NCBI GenBank assembly: GCA_020851785.1
Contig: JADZCC010000072.1
Coordinates: 1-53,749, forward strand
Direction of reading: 5' to 3'
Length of the DNA stretch: 53,749 nucleotides
Source: Anaerolineales bacterium
GTDB lineage: Bacteria > Chloroflexota > Anaerolineae > Anaerolineales > Villigracilaceae
Both the position numbers and the translations under genes were made by a program. Of the stretch, positions 25,999 to 29,130 are shown piece after piece. A model generated the notes under the pieces. That model ran no database searches. It saw only the letters and a program-made list of their open reading frames with translations, and was not told where the DNA came from. The stretch's first letter is position 1. Each line of letters starts with the position of its first letter.

Positions 25999-26172
25999 AT
26001 GACTTTCACAATTTTGTATTTCGGATTTGCTCTACTCGTCTTGGCGCTCGTCTTCGGAGTCACGTTCAAACTTAAAGGCTGGAAAATTGCGCTCGCGGCA
26101 ACGGGCGGAACTTTCGTCCTCTTTGCGCTGGGGCTGGTTGCGGCGATTTACGCCATCACGAGCGCCATGTAA
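25999..26172 (+). CDS. Small two-helix membrane protein (57 residues)
   Basis: A short frame starting MTFTILYFGFALLVLALVFG, with a basic loop (KLKGWK) and a second helix (LAATGGTFVLFALGLVAAIYA), ending TSAM. AAGGAG lies 10 nt before the ATG, and a -10-like TAAAAT is at 25973-25978. Two hydrophobic segments with a Lys-rich turn predict a hairpin in the membrane with the loop inside. The good Shine-Dalgarno, the promoter-like site and the terminator downstream support a real gene. No family recognised. Confidence 0.6.
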   Translation: MTFTILYFGFALLVLALVFGVTFKLKGWKIALAATGGTFVLFALGLVAAIYAITSAM

Positions 26173-26241: not shown

Positions 26242-26280
26242 AAAAGGGATAGTCGTTTCAAGACTATCCCTTTTATCTTT
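26242..26280. terminator. Bidirectional terminator between the small membrane protein and mgtE
   Basis: aaaagggatagtc (26242-26254) and gactatccctttt (26262-26274) form a 13-bp perfect stem with a 7-nt loop. T-rich sequence follows on the plus strand and the A-run arm supplies T residues on the minus strand. Confidence 0.9.
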
Positions 26281-27659
26281 TAGAGGAGCGTTCCTTTAAG
26301 GATCGCCGCCGCCACGCTAAAGTAGATGATCAGCCCGGAAACATCCACCAGCGTTGCCACGAACGGCGCGGAGGATGTGGCTGGGTCGAGCCCGGCGCGC
26401 CGCAAAATAAACGGAAGCATGGAACCGGAAAGCGACCCCCACAAAACGATGCCCACCAGCGCGAAGCCGACGGTGAGAGCCAGCAGGAACCAATGCTCGC
26501 CATAAGAGCCAAAGAGTTTGGCCCAGACGCTGATGCGGACAAAACCGATGACGCCCAAAATTGCGCCCAGCGAAAGGCCGGATAAAAACTCACGCCGCAT
26601 GACGCGCCACCAATCTTTGAGAGTCACTTCGCCCAGCGCCATGGCGCGAATGATTAACGTGGAGGCTTGTGAACCGGAGTTACCGCCGCTGGAGATGACC
26701 AGCGGCACAAAGATGGACAAAACCACGGCTTTGGCAATTTCATGTTCAAACTGACCCATTGCGGTGGCGGTTAACATTTCGCTGATGAATAAAATCACCA
26801 GCCAGGTGGCGCGCTTTTGCACCATTTTGGGAATGCCAATTTTCATGTAGGGTTCGTCCAGCGCTTCGGAACCGCCGATTTTGTGGATGTCTTCCGTGGC
26901 TTCTTCTTCGGCCACATCGAGGATGTCGTCCACGGTAACAATGCCAATCAAGGTATCTTCAGCGTCGGTCACGGGCAGGGCGTTTAAGTCTGAGAGCTTG
27001 AATTCTTCAACGGCTTTTTCGCGGTTATCGGTGGCTTTCAGGGCCACAAAGCGAAAGTCCATCAAGTCGGAGATCAAGTCGGTGGGCTGGGCTAAGAGCA
27101 GTTGGCGAATCCGCAGGTCGTCCACCAGTTTATTGCTTTCGTCAATCACATAAATCGAACTCATCGTCTCGCTATCTTTGCCGTAGCGGCGAATATGATC
27201 GAGGGCATAGGCAATCGTCCATTCAGTGCGGACGCGCACAAAATCCGGCGTCATCAAACGTCCAACGGAATCTTCTGCGTAGCCCAGCAGTTGCGAAGCG
27301 ACGGCGCGCTCTTCGGTTGAGAGCAGGCTCAGCAATTGCTGAATCACAGTGGCGGGCAATTCCTCCAGGATGGAAGTACGATCGTCCGGGGACATGGCGT
27401 TGAAGATATTGGCCACATCCTCGCGGGCCATCGCTTTCAATAATTCTTTTTGGCGCTCTTCAGAAAGATAACTAAAGACTCCCGCCGCCTGATCGCGCGG
27501 AAGCAGGCGGAAAATCACCGCTTCCATCTCCGCCGATAATGGCTCCATCAATTCGGCCAAATCCACGGGCGGCCAATTTTTGGTCTCTTCGCGAATGGTA
27601 TTAAAATCGCGGGCTGACACCAACGCCTTGAGGTCAATAATTTTCAATGTTGGATTCAT
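26280..27659 (-). CDS. mgtE: Magnesium transporter MgtE
   Basis: A 459-residue Mg2+ channel. The N-terminal helical superhelix domain (LAELMEPLSAEMEAVIFRLL, then the SPDDRTSILEELP segment) is followed by two CBS domains (about 130-255, including LVDDLRIRQLLLA and LPVTDAEDTLIGIVTVDD), a plug helix and five membrane helices with FVPLVISSGGNSGSQASTL, the conserved pore and Mg-binding stretch. Cytosolic Mg2+ bound to the N/CBS domains closes the pore. ATG at 27659 is preferred over 27665 because AAAGGA then lies 8 nt upstream. A long leader with an M-box riboswitch precedes the gene, so synthesis is also controlled by Mg2+. Confidence 0.95.
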   Translation of the reverse strand: MNPTLKIIDLKALVSARDFNTIREETKNWPPVDLAELMEPLSAEMEAVIFRLLPRDQAAGVFSYLSEERQKELLKAMAREDVANIFNAMSPDDRTSILEELPATVIQQLLSLLSTEERAVASQLLGYAEDSVGRLMTPDFVRVRTEWTIAYALDHIRRYGKDSETMSSIYVIDESNKLVDDLRIRQLLLAQPTDLISDLMDFRFVALKATDNREKAVEEFKLSDLNALPVTDAEDTLIGIVTVDDILDVAEEEATEDIHKIGGSEALDEPYMKIGIPKMVQKRATWLVILFISEMLTATAMGQFEHEIAKAVVLSIFVPLVISSGGNSGSQASTLIIRAMALGEVTLKDWWRVMRREFLSGLSLGAILGVIGFVRISVWAKLFGSYGEHWFLLALTVGFALVGIVLWGSLSGSMLPFILRRAGLDPATSSAPFVATLVDVSGLIIYFSVAAAILKGTLL

Positions 27660-27725
27660 ATCCATTTTCCTTTAAATCAGATGAGATTGCCGCGAGTCCT
27701 ATTTTGGATTGGGACTTAAAACAAA

Positions 27726-27758
27726 AGACTCGCCTGCGTTGGACGAAAAGGCGAATCT
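27726..27758 (-). terminator. Second terminator-like hairpin in the mgtE leader
   Basis: On the minus strand, AGATTCGCC (27758-27750) and GGCGAGTCT (27734-27726) pair with one G-U, and TTTTGTTTT follows. It lies between the small leader frame and mgtE, so it would act as an attenuator. Confidence 0.6.
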
Positions 27759-27810
27759 TTCCACGCTCGGGGTTGCGCGTCATTCCCCCACAGTTTACAA
27801 GCCCGCCAGA

Positions 27811-27918
27811 TCAGCGCGACGCGAAAGGAGGAAACGCAGACAACCAACCGGCGTAAGGGAACGCCCGGCTTTTCGCCTGAGAAAGAAGCAACTGTTTATC
27901 GCCGTTCGCACTACTCAT
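27811..27918 (-). CDS. 35-residue leader peptide candidate in the mgtE leader
   Basis: The minus strand has AAGGAGGTGG, an almost ideal Shine-Dalgarno, placed 8 nt before an ATG at 27918. The frame runs MSSANGDKQLLLSQ, then AKSRAFPYAGW, then LSAFPPFASR and a TGA. It lies downstream of the M-box and its hairpin and upstream of a second terminator-like hairpin, with mgtE starting about 150 nt further on. The position resembles mgtL in the enterobacterial mgtA leader, where translation of a short peptide sets the fate of the transcript. The sequence is unrelated to MgtL. The four aromatic residues and three prolines near the end could matter for ribosome stalling. Function inferred from position only. 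Confidence 0.5.
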   Translation of the reverse strand: MSSANGDKQLLLSQAKSRAFPYAGWLSAFPPFASR

Positions 27919-27982
27919 GCGAACCACCTCCTTGCGTTATGCGTCTGGATTTGCAACTGCATCGCATACCGGCAAAAGGAAA

Positions 27983-28007
27983 GCCTCCCGTTAAAAATCA
28001 GGGAGGC
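27983..28007 (-). terminator. First terminator-like hairpin after the M-box
   Basis: On the minus strand, GCCTCCC (28007-28001) and GGGAGGC (27989-27983) form a 7-bp G+C-rich stem with an 11-nt loop, followed by TTTCCTTTT. It is directly downstream of the M-box aptamer and is the likely expression platform. Confidence 0.65.
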
Positions 28008-28033
28008 GCAAAGGCAGACCTAAAGAACGCACG

Positions 28034-28191
28034 CCTCTCTGGTTGAGCTTTAGCACTGTGTATCGTAGGGAATTGCTCCCAGCCACTTTGAGTGAAGCCT
28101 TAAGCCGACCTCACCTGGTATACCCTTTGGCGTCTTTCGACGTTTCAGGACAATGGCTTGTGTATGCAACAGACGCCTGGCCTAACGAGGA
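28034..28191 (-). ncRNA. M-box (ykoK) magnesium riboswitch upstream of mgtE
   Basis: On the minus strand the region carries the hallmark M-box segments in order: CTCGTTAGG near the 5' end (28191-28182), AAAGACGCCAAAGGG in the middle (28138-28124), AGGTGAGG (about 28116-28109), and ACAGTGCTAAAGCTC (28059-28045) near the 3' end. These match conserved blocks of the B. subtilis mgtE (ykoK) leader, where Mg2+ binding compacts the aptamer and favours termination. A promoter lies just upstream and a terminator-like hairpin 26 nt downstream. The identification is by eye against the known consensus. Confidence 0.9.
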
Positions 28192-28211
28192 CCATTCAAT
28201 TTGCGCTGGGA

Positions 28212-28240
28212 GTTATACACCCGTAAAAAAGCCCTGTCAA
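28212..28240 (-). promoter_or_regulatory. Promoter of the mgtE leader
   Basis: On the minus strand, TTGACA (28240-28235), a 17-bp spacer and TATAAC (28217-28212). The predicted start near 28205 is about 14 nt before the first conserved M-box segment and about 545 nt before mgtE. Confidence 0.85.
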
Positions 28241-28269
28241 GAAAAGCGCGGGGGAATTTTATGCGACGC

Positions 28270-29130
28270 TCAACGCCAAAAAGTCAGGCACAACAACCCA
28301 ACCGTTGCGGCGAAAACGATAAAAGCAGTTGAAGTTAACACACGCCAGTTCGGCTTGCCCCCCAAACGGATGGCATGAAGTTGGAAGGCTTGAAAAACTG
28401 TCAGCGGAAGGATCAAGAAGGCTGTTCCAACCAGCCTCAAAGAAAAGCCAAATAATGGCGCAGAGACAAAAGCCAGATAGGCAAAGGCCAGCAATCCATT
28501 TAGCAAGGGGATGGCTCGTTCCCAGGTTAGCAAGCGAAGGAGCGTGCCACGCTGATACTTTTCATCTTCCGTAAAAGTGGGAAAATTCAACGTGAGGAAG
28601 TACGTCAGCGCCAAAGCCGTTAGCGGCACAATCACGAAGCGCAACAGGCGCGGATCATCTTCGGTTTGGAGCGCAAATCCCAGCGCAGGAGCCAGATAGG
28701 CGATCAGCGCCGCCAAAGTCAGCTCGCCAAAACCATGCCCATTCAGGCGAAAAGGCGGAAGCGCATAAAGGATGGCCAAGCCGATAAACAGAGCCAGGAA
28801 ATAAAAAACAAGGGTCGAAACGGCGTAATTCGTCAGCAAAAGGTAGGAAAAGGTTAAACTGCCCGTTAAAAATATCAGCGCAACATACAGCAGATTGTTT
28901 CGCAGAACTTCTTTTTGTCTGGGAGTTTCTCCAACGACTAGCGGTTCGTTATGCGGACGAAAAACCCCGGCCAGTAAATTCATGCTCATTTGAGCGAAGA
29001 TCAAAACGGATAGGCCCAGCGTAAAAACTGAAAGTCGCAAAGGGTTGTTCAAATAAACGGAAATGCCGCCCCCCAGCGCATAGGTCAGGACGGTTAAGCA
29101 CAACTCCGACGGGCGGATAAATTTAAGCAT
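28270..29130 (-). CDS. UbiA-superfamily prenyltransferase-like membrane protein
   Basis: A 286-residue protein of about eight to nine helices. It begins LKFIRPSELCLTVLTYALGG, the pattern of MenA/UbiA-type prenyltransferases. The second Asp-rich region is recognisable (LNFPTFTEDEKYQRGTLLRL), but the first NDxxD motif is degenerate: MNLLAGVFRPHNEP stands where Mg-prenyl diphosphate is normally bound. The enzyme may use another substrate or be inactive. Active relatives attach prenyl chains to quinone, chlorophyll or lipid precursors. It is the last gene of an SDR-DinB-UbiA run on the minus strand, with gaps of 11 and 22 bases. Confidence 0.7.
   Translation of the reverse strand: MLKFIRPSELCLTVLTYALGGGISVYLNNPLRLSVFTLGLSVLIFAQMSMNLLAGVFRPHNEPLVVGETPRQKEVLRNNLLYVALIFLTGSLTFSYLLLTNYAVSTLVFYFLALFIGLAILYALPPFRLNGHGFGELTLAALIAYLAPALGFALQTEDDPRLLRFVIVPLTALALTYFLTLNFPTFTEDEKYQRGTLLRLLTWERAIPLLNGLLAFAYLAFVSAPLFGFSLRLVGTAFLILPLTVFQAFQLHAIRLGGKPNWRVLTSTAFIVFAATVGLLCLTFWR

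Follow-up and report, generated by a model that had tools for sequence, protein, structure and literature searches.

The M-box leader of mgtE

The window, i.e. the whole 53,749-nt stretch of Anaerolineales DNA that was analysed, carries on its minus strand the Mg2+ transporter gene mgtE behind a long leader. In the order of transcription, the leader consists of a promoter-like element, an M-box, terminator 1, hairpin P, a Shine-Dalgarno sequence, a 35-codon ORF and terminator 2, followed by mgtE. The individual features are:

28212..28240, minus strand: promoter-like TTGACA-17-TATAAC (direct reading)
28028..28196, minus strand: M-box riboswitch aptamer, RF00380 (cmscan, 125.3 bits, model positions 1-169)
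28028..28057, minus strand: last 30 nt of the aptamer, predicted to pair against terminator 1 as an antiterminator strand (RNAduplex, −17.7 kcal/mol with the 5′ arm of terminator 1)
27973..28007, minus strand: terminator 1, GCCTCCC/GGGAGGC stem and TTTCCTTTTG tail (from the sequence; 35 of 36 M-box leaders have one)
27938..27968, minus strand: hairpin P, 6-bp outer and 3-bp inner stem with a conserved AAATCCA-type internal loop (hand alignment)
27927..27933, minus strand: Shine-Dalgarno sequence AAGGAGG (direct reading)
27811..27918, minus strand: leader ORF of 35 codons, MSSANGDKQLLLSQAKSRAFPYAGWLSAFPPFASR (start and Shine-Dalgarno sequence conserved, peptide not)
27742..27877, minus strand: giant hairpin predicted to act as antiterminator, its apex holding the stop codon of the ORF, 27813-27811 (folding prediction)
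27858..27877, minus strand: 5′ antiterminator strand inside the ORF, from codon 14 (pairing prediction)
27742..27762, minus strand: 3′ antiterminator strand, which shares sequence with terminator 2 in its 5′ arm and loop (pairing prediction)
27718..27758, minus strand: terminator 2, AGATTCGCC.../GGCGAGTCT stem and TTTTGTTTT tail (from the sequence; counterpart in 29 of 36 M-box leaders)
26280..27665, minus strand: mgtE (Pfam MgtE, MgtE_N and CBS domains)

An earlier, sequence-only reading had named the downstream gene mgtE, and Pfam bore this out (PF01769, E = 1.4e-37, together with PF03448 and CBS); the gene is the sole PF01769 match in the 3.2 Mb genome. Comparison with relatives places its start codon likely at 27659; the MgtE proteins of L004 and L007 start with MNPTL. 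Between mgtE and a convergent small ORF (25999-26172) lies a strong hairpin with T and A tracts (26242-26274), likely a two-way terminator. The promoter proposed by the same reading at 28212-28240 was found as the promoter-like TTGACA-17-TATAAC. It is absent from a simple promoter scan because of the final C of its second hexamer. Six other leaders inspected also showed TTGACA and a TATAA-type box 5′ of the M-box.

The M-box, which had been placed at 28191-28034, proved slightly wider in the Rfam search (28196-28028; 125.3 bits against a gathering cut-off of 44, E = 9.8e-28). RF00380 was the sole Rfam family at gathering scores across the whole window. A second known riboswitch between the terminators was also considered, and a cmscan of 27600-28300 with E values up to 10 returned only the M-box and a chance snoRNA match. 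The G+C-rich hairpin with T-rich tail described at 28007-27983 is present, followed by TTTCCTTTT; the simple terminator scan missed it because its loop is too long for the rule of the scan.

For comparison, 36 M-box leaders were collected from the order. RF00380 was found in 6 of 61 relatives, in 19 of 301 genomes of the order and in 31 of 152 genomes of the family (30 of these over the cut-off), with stricter filters at which some weak matches were lost. Downstream of the aptamer, 35 of the 36 leaders (all except L021) have a T-tailed hairpin more stable than −8 kcal/mol, the tail being T-rich, and in M-box leaders the last 30 nt of the aptamer can pair with the 5′ arm of terminator 1. The values predicted for the window, without a shuffled control, are −12.6 kcal/mol for the terminator 1 hairpin and −17.7 kcal/mol for the competing aptamer duplex. 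The first layer is an ordinary M-box OFF platform, in which a predicted terminator competes with the 3′ strand of the aptamer. As established for Bacillus subtilis ykoK, according to the available part of PMC12810186, Mg2+ holds the closing stem of the aptamer, a hairpin of the terminator 1 type forms and transcription stops.

Conservation and pairing of the second module

A short ORF led by a Shine-Dalgarno sequence was present in 32 of the 36 M-box leaders, 28 of them detected automatically and four by eye (L009, L010, L013, and L050). Both the ORF and terminator 2 were found in 29 of the 36, distributed over 11 genera (nine in the window's own family, two in a second one within the order), so that the small ORF and the second hairpin are largely conserved where the riboswitch is kept. 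Three leaders have the ORF but no clear terminator 2 (L009, L010, and L013). In four others (L001, L011, L020, and L037) no such leader ORF was found, and these were left out of the search for terminator 2. Named records with identical leader ORFs belong to Chloroflexota/Anaerolineae. On a further Anaerolineae contig (L053), the second module lies ahead of a gene whose product looked mgtE-like by eye, and the 1177 nt before the ORF yielded no M-box.

Two observations concern the downstream genes. By eye, an M-box with a leader ORF also lies before genes whose products resemble Nramp transporters (L008), CorA (L013), and P-type ATPases (L016 and L018). L037 has an M-box and terminator 1, no leader ORF was found in it, and its downstream gene was not recognised by eye as a Mg2+ transporter.

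In the window, the 35-codon frame with an ideal Shine-Dalgarno sequence was recovered as first read, with ATG at 27918, a stop codon ending at 27811 and AAGGAGG at 27933-27927. Start codons of the leader ORFs were ATG in 15 and GTG in 18 of 33 cases, and no run of regulatory codons for one amino acid was noticed by eye in these 33 ORFs. Hairpin P ends 4 nt before the Shine-Dalgarno sequence in the window and a few nt before it in relatives. It was aligned by hand in 17 of the 33 leaders, leaving out unclear placements and repeats; a MAFFT version was not used for the counts. The alignment contains 151 standard pairs out of 153 and double changes at all 9 positions, compared with a maximum of 125 in 5,000 shuffles. 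With its AAAUYYAAA-like internal loop, hairpin P is a strongly covarying element adjoining the Shine-Dalgarno sequence, and it matches no known family. The simplest guess for its role is presentation of the ribosome-binding site.

Hairpin 2 proper spans 27758-27726, as described before, and carries the tail TTTTGTTTT; the simple terminator scan lists only its top part. The sequence-only reading had further noted that CGAAAAG in the ORF can pair with CTTTTCG of this hairpin. These heptamers turned out to be the core of a longer pairing (27877-27858 with 27762-27742) that is kept through sequence change. For the pairing test, ORF nucleotides 16-90 were taken from each leader and paired with terminator 2 (5′ arm plus loop) from every leader. 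The set comprised 29 leaders, i.e. 28 with an M-box plus L053; L039 was dropped as a duplicate of L038, and L009, L010, and L013 were dropped for want of a clear hairpin. As the automatic finder had misplaced or overextended some hairpins, all 29 were set by eye: its choice was replaced in L007, L008, and L015, and others were trimmed (the T-run of L008 is weak).

Own-partner pairing had a mean of −19.2 kcal/mol, compared with −14.7 (sd 0.6) under permutation and an average of −14.5 with the partners of other leaders. None of 20,000 permutations was as good, either with all 29 leaders or with the 25 left after removal of four near-duplicates. In 25 of the 29 the duplex begins about 30-42 nt after the start codon, usually at about codon 11-14. 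Compensated changes include (i) GAGCGAAA with TTTCGCTC in L002; (ii) ACGAAAG with CTTTCGT in L006; (iii) TGGCGAA with TTCGCCA in L048; (iv) TGGCAA..ACGGCAT with ATGCCGT..TTGCCA in L045; and (v) GCGAAAG..CGATTC with GAATCG..CTTTCGC in L047.

Taken singly, the leaders are not all equally strong. In 7 of 29 (L003, L004, L014, L042, L043, L049, and L051), over 5% of the shuffled ORF segments do as well as the real one. Among the 29, the window's own pairing comes 7th when ranked by ORF and 3rd when ranked by terminator, and 3.5% of shuffles of its ORF segment pair as well with hairpin 2. Its leader fold energy is unexceptional (z −1.2, with 22 of 200 shuffles as good, and −1.6 in a second calculation); over the 29 leaders the mean z is −2.6, with 19 below −2. 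The window alone is unexceptional with respect to chance; the strong evidence is comparative.

When the RNA was folded up to the loop of terminator 2, the 5′ arm paired with ORF nucleotides 25-72 with a mean probability above 0.5 in all 29 leaders. The overall mean was 0.71, versus 0.27 with the ORF stretch shuffled and 0.38 with it swapped between leaders (8 each per leader). The stretch between the pairing strands likewise fits its own partner best, with none of 20,000 permutations equalling it, and in 20 of the 29 leaders the whole is predicted to form one giant hairpin with a single loop. The stop codon lies at most 6 nt from the apex in 15 of these 20 (2 nt in the window), which 0 of 20,000 permutations of stop positions matched. 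In these leaders, a ribosome reading the ORF would travel along the 5′ arm of the giant hairpin and finish at the tip, which in the window leaves about 50 nt to terminator 2. Five leaders (L038-L042) deviate in that the ORF ends close to terminator 2, that of L040 running into it.

By calculation, terminator 2 exceeds the antiterminator in stability in 27 of the 29 leaders (−64.1 versus −57.8 in the window). The antiterminator must therefore win by forming first, and the order of formation decides. Terminator and antiterminator are predicted, with comparative support, to be mutually exclusive, and the latter overlaps the ORF, as is characteristic of a ribosome-mediated intrinsic attenuator.

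The start of the leader peptide within and beyond Chloroflexota

In a non-redundant set of 28 leaders (33 minus five near-duplicates), 22 have at least two acidic residues among the first six, typically as Met-Asp-x-Asp-Ser. Residue 2 is Asp in 21, residue 4 is Asp in 24 and residue 5 is Ser in 18 of the 28, while residue 3 is Ala, Ser, Pro, Thr or Asp. These five amino acids are encoded by 13 different codons at position 3, and the constraint there thus looks peptide-level. Examples are MDPDS in L007 and L018 and MDPDH in L008. Further along the peptide conservation is lower, and the RNA pairing accounts for part of the sequence there.

The window's peptide, MSSANGDKQ, has one acidic residue (Asp7) in its first eight, and the acidic pair at about positions 2 and 4 is absent. 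Only L003 and L007 among the eight leaders of its genus have two acidic residues in the first six. The peptide of L004 likewise has one acidic residue and no acidic start, and L006, L015, and L046 have a single acidic residue in the first six.

A codon preference accompanies the acidic start. Ser following Asp at residue 5 or 6 is encoded by AGT in 20 of 21 cases in the non-redundant leaders, compared with 10 of 88 later Ser codons in the same ORFs. AGT also occurs in L105, L107, L108, and L111 (Coriobacteriaceae) and in L135 and L136 (family of L064), of which L107, L108, L111, and L136 were not selected for it. Slow decoding at this serine could tune the decision of the ribosome. Given the size of its footprint, a ribosome on codon 4 would end just short of the pairing region. 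Aborted translation would therefore leave the antiterminator free, and continued translation would cover it.

An exact-pattern scan of a species-genome collection for the MDADS start returned 16 stretches. Seven were Chloroflexota leaders, six of them with an M-box (the M-box scan took 11 of the 16). One lies before mgtE in a member of Eubacteriales (L064, gene read by eye), with no M-box found, and one before an MgtA-type ATPase gene in Coriobacteriaceae (L057, by eye, outside the M-box scan). The remaining seven looked like chance by eye. MgtA was also sought in 61 genomes of the family of the Coriobacteriaceae seed, and a Met-Asp-x-Asp/Glu start with a Shine-Dalgarno sequence was seen in 4 of 29 upstream regions read out of 30 (L105, L107, L108, and L111); two further acidic-start matches upstream of MgtA in this family were judged to be chance. 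In the family of L064, mgtE was present in 41 of 60 genomes, with an acidic Asp start in L135 and L136 (28 of 30 upstream regions read). The leaders L107, L108, and L111 (MgtA) and L136 (mgtE) also begin Met-Asp-x-Asp/Glu-Ser.

Several MgtA-type genes of the Coriobacteriaceae family carry short leader ORFs (L105-L111), and that of L106 reads MDANADK, close to the window's form. In the family of L064, mgtE also occurs behind a different acidic leader ORF, MEGRS(R/Q)KMEAD... (L147, L148, and L149), two of these with HPEPEAI.

A looser scan for acidic starts matched 60 of 400 phylum genomes (73 places) versus about 80 matches in the reversed control, counted by eye, and is thus mostly noise. Among 30 phylum loci read from it, three were known leaders (L074, L075, and L077), and in the other 27 none was recognised by eye before a Mg2+ transporter. 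The loose scan matched 3 of 120 genomes of the family of the L064 genome, of which only the seed was a leader. In the two phyla of the seeds outside Chloroflexota, it matched 7 of 388 and 1 of 386 genomes, respectively, and by eye only the seeds lay before Mg2+-transporter genes, so that the exact form is rare outside Chloroflexota. The distribution of the acidic leader is patchy.

A two-stage reading, its rivals and known systems

The window's leader is real, conserved and goes beyond an ordinary M-box: it places a riboswitch and a predicted translation-controlled attenuator in series. The sequence-only reading had suggested a second layer, with termination depending on whether the small ORF is translated. 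As a prediction, this is supported by the conserved ORF and hairpin 2 and by the maintained antiterminator pairing. Terminator 2 is probably translation-sensitive. Without a ribosome beyond about codon 10, the giant hairpin would form, hide the 5′ arm of terminator 2 and let RNA polymerase read into mgtE. Ribosomes moving through the ORF would open the 5′ arm of the giant hairpin, upon which terminator 2 would form and transcription would stop. Once a ribosome stands at the stop codon, it has left the pairing region uncovered, and another ribosome behind it may be required for complete termination.

On balance, we favour the reading that the second module lets transcription through only when the ORF is poorly translated, as is likely at low Mg2+. 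In many relatives, the Met-Asp-x-Asp-Ser start would make ribosomes fall off or pause at low Mg2+, before the pairing region. Both layers would then be OFF at high Mg2+, and mgtE would be read only with both relieved. The full scheme, with Mg2+ sensed by the ribosome, seems somewhat probable at the level of the family and less so for the window's own copy. Drop-off at the acidic start is suggested for the wider family by analogy with MgtL and MgtQ; for the window's own peptide the suggestion is weak. Translation control itself is well supported in the window, as the pairing, the stop at the apex and the Shine-Dalgarno sequence are kept. Mg2+ sensing by ribosome destabilisation would be carried over from its relatives, and may there be weakened or replaced.

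The exceptional peptides bear on what the attenuator reports. Pairing, Shine-Dalgarno sequence and mostly the stop at the apex are kept in the window and L004, which have no acidic start, and also where only one of the first six residues is acidic (L006, L015, and L046). This is what would be expected if a real translation-controlled attenuator reported translation capacity, ribosome supply or initiation rate instead of Mg2+ through acidic drop-off, such that any fall in leader translation opened mgtE; that no single-amino-acid codon run was seen by eye agrees with this as well. We regard such a general sensor as unlikely, however, with Met-Asp-x-Asp-Ser being common in other genera though the rest of the peptide is not conserved, and with acidic leader ORFs lying before Mg2+-transporter-like genes in some unrelated bacteria.

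Translation might also play no part. The 230 nt after terminator 1 could be a second ligand-sensing RNA, made of hairpin P and the giant hairpin, that switches terminator 2 with the ORF being incidental. The strong covariation and conserved internal loop of hairpin P and the predicted structure of much of the module would suit such an RNA. Yet the start codon switches between ATG and GTG with the Shine-Dalgarno sequence kept, codon 3 changes synonymously, the frame is often open just to the hairpin apex, and no Rfam family except the M-box matches the window leader convincingly; we hold this account to be quite improbable. Least credible, and very improbable in our view, is an ordinary M-box leader in which the ORF and terminator 2 are leftovers without effect on mgtE. 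It would accommodate the M-box leaders in which no such ORF was found (L001, L011, L020, and L037), but not readily the conservation of the module across 11 genera and two families, the pairing that no permutation in 20,000 equalled, or L053, where the module stands with no M-box found upstream.

The mgtL leader of enterobacteria is not known to be an M-box. Ribosomes on MgtL drop off at an acidic EPDP motif (Glu2, Asp4) at low Mg2+; full translation leads to termination, and aborted translation to mgtA expression (available part of PMC11282234). Like the leader ORF here, mgtL of enterobacterial mgtA is a short leader ORF whose translation is linked to termination before a Mg2+ transporter, and many relatives of the window share its acidic residues 2 and 4; MgtL differs in acting via a Rho-dependent terminator, and the window's peptide lacks the acidic pair. 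In Salmonella mgtQ, Asp2/Glu5 reduce leader translation and raise MgtB, drop-off itself not being demonstrated in the part of the source available (PMC8092293). As here, the Asp2/Glu5 leader ORF before mgtB overlaps one strand of competing stem-loops, but according to the same part it sets mgtB translation and not transcription termination. The tandem attenuators of Salmonella mgtCBR likewise put two regulatory layers before a Mg2+ transporter operon; both are ORFs (responding to ATP and proline) in the available part of PMC3641672, whereas here one is an RNA aptamer.

The B. subtilis ykoK-type M-box (RF00380, MgtE-type) likewise combines an aptamer with a terminator against which one aptamer strand competes, and an MgtE gene follows; the leader here adds a second, ORF-containing terminator module before the gene. 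As far as the available part of PMC12810186 goes, the Mbox-uORF leader of Mycobacterium tuberculosis pe20 is the closest published case, with a different mechanism. It also has an M-box followed by a conserved small upstream ORF and a Mg2+-linked gene. In that 2026 report, the aptamer works as a translational platform controlling the Shine-Dalgarno sequence of the uORF, termination is Rho-dependent, the uORF is treated as the regulated product, and no canonical intrinsic terminator is associated with the ends, again in the part available (PMC12810186). Here, by contrast, the two terminators appear to be intrinsic, and one strand of an antiterminator shares sequence with the ORF; a predicted terminator follows the aptamer in 35 of 36 leaders, including the window. 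Among the matches listed in literature searches, whose coverage left out most subscription journals and preprints, no title or abstract described an M-box with an ORF-controlled intrinsic terminator, and no study of such a leader in Anaerolineae/Chloroflexi was among them.

The broadest form of our proposal combines two statements and is tentative, falling slightly short of an even chance: that one transcript would read Mg2+ twice with physically unrelated sensors, by an RNA aptamer and then by ribosome stability on a Met-Asp-x-Asp-Ser(AGU) start, each with its own intrinsic terminator; and that the acidic start would be a portable Mg2+-sensing leader peptide that has arisen or spread in Chloroflexota, Coriobacteriaceae, and Eubacteriales, as MgtL/MgtQ in enterobacteria. 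A specific clue to the possible tuning of the ribosome step is the AGU codon, nearly fixed for the serine that follows the second aspartate. If confirmed, the leader would offer a clean in vitro system, since its terminators both appear intrinsic and Rho should not be required. The arrangement would then represent a natural circuit in series, with a Mg2+ importer made only when direct ion binding and the behaviour of the ribosome agree, and would extend ribosome-destabilising Mg2+ sensing beyond the enterobacterial cases compared.
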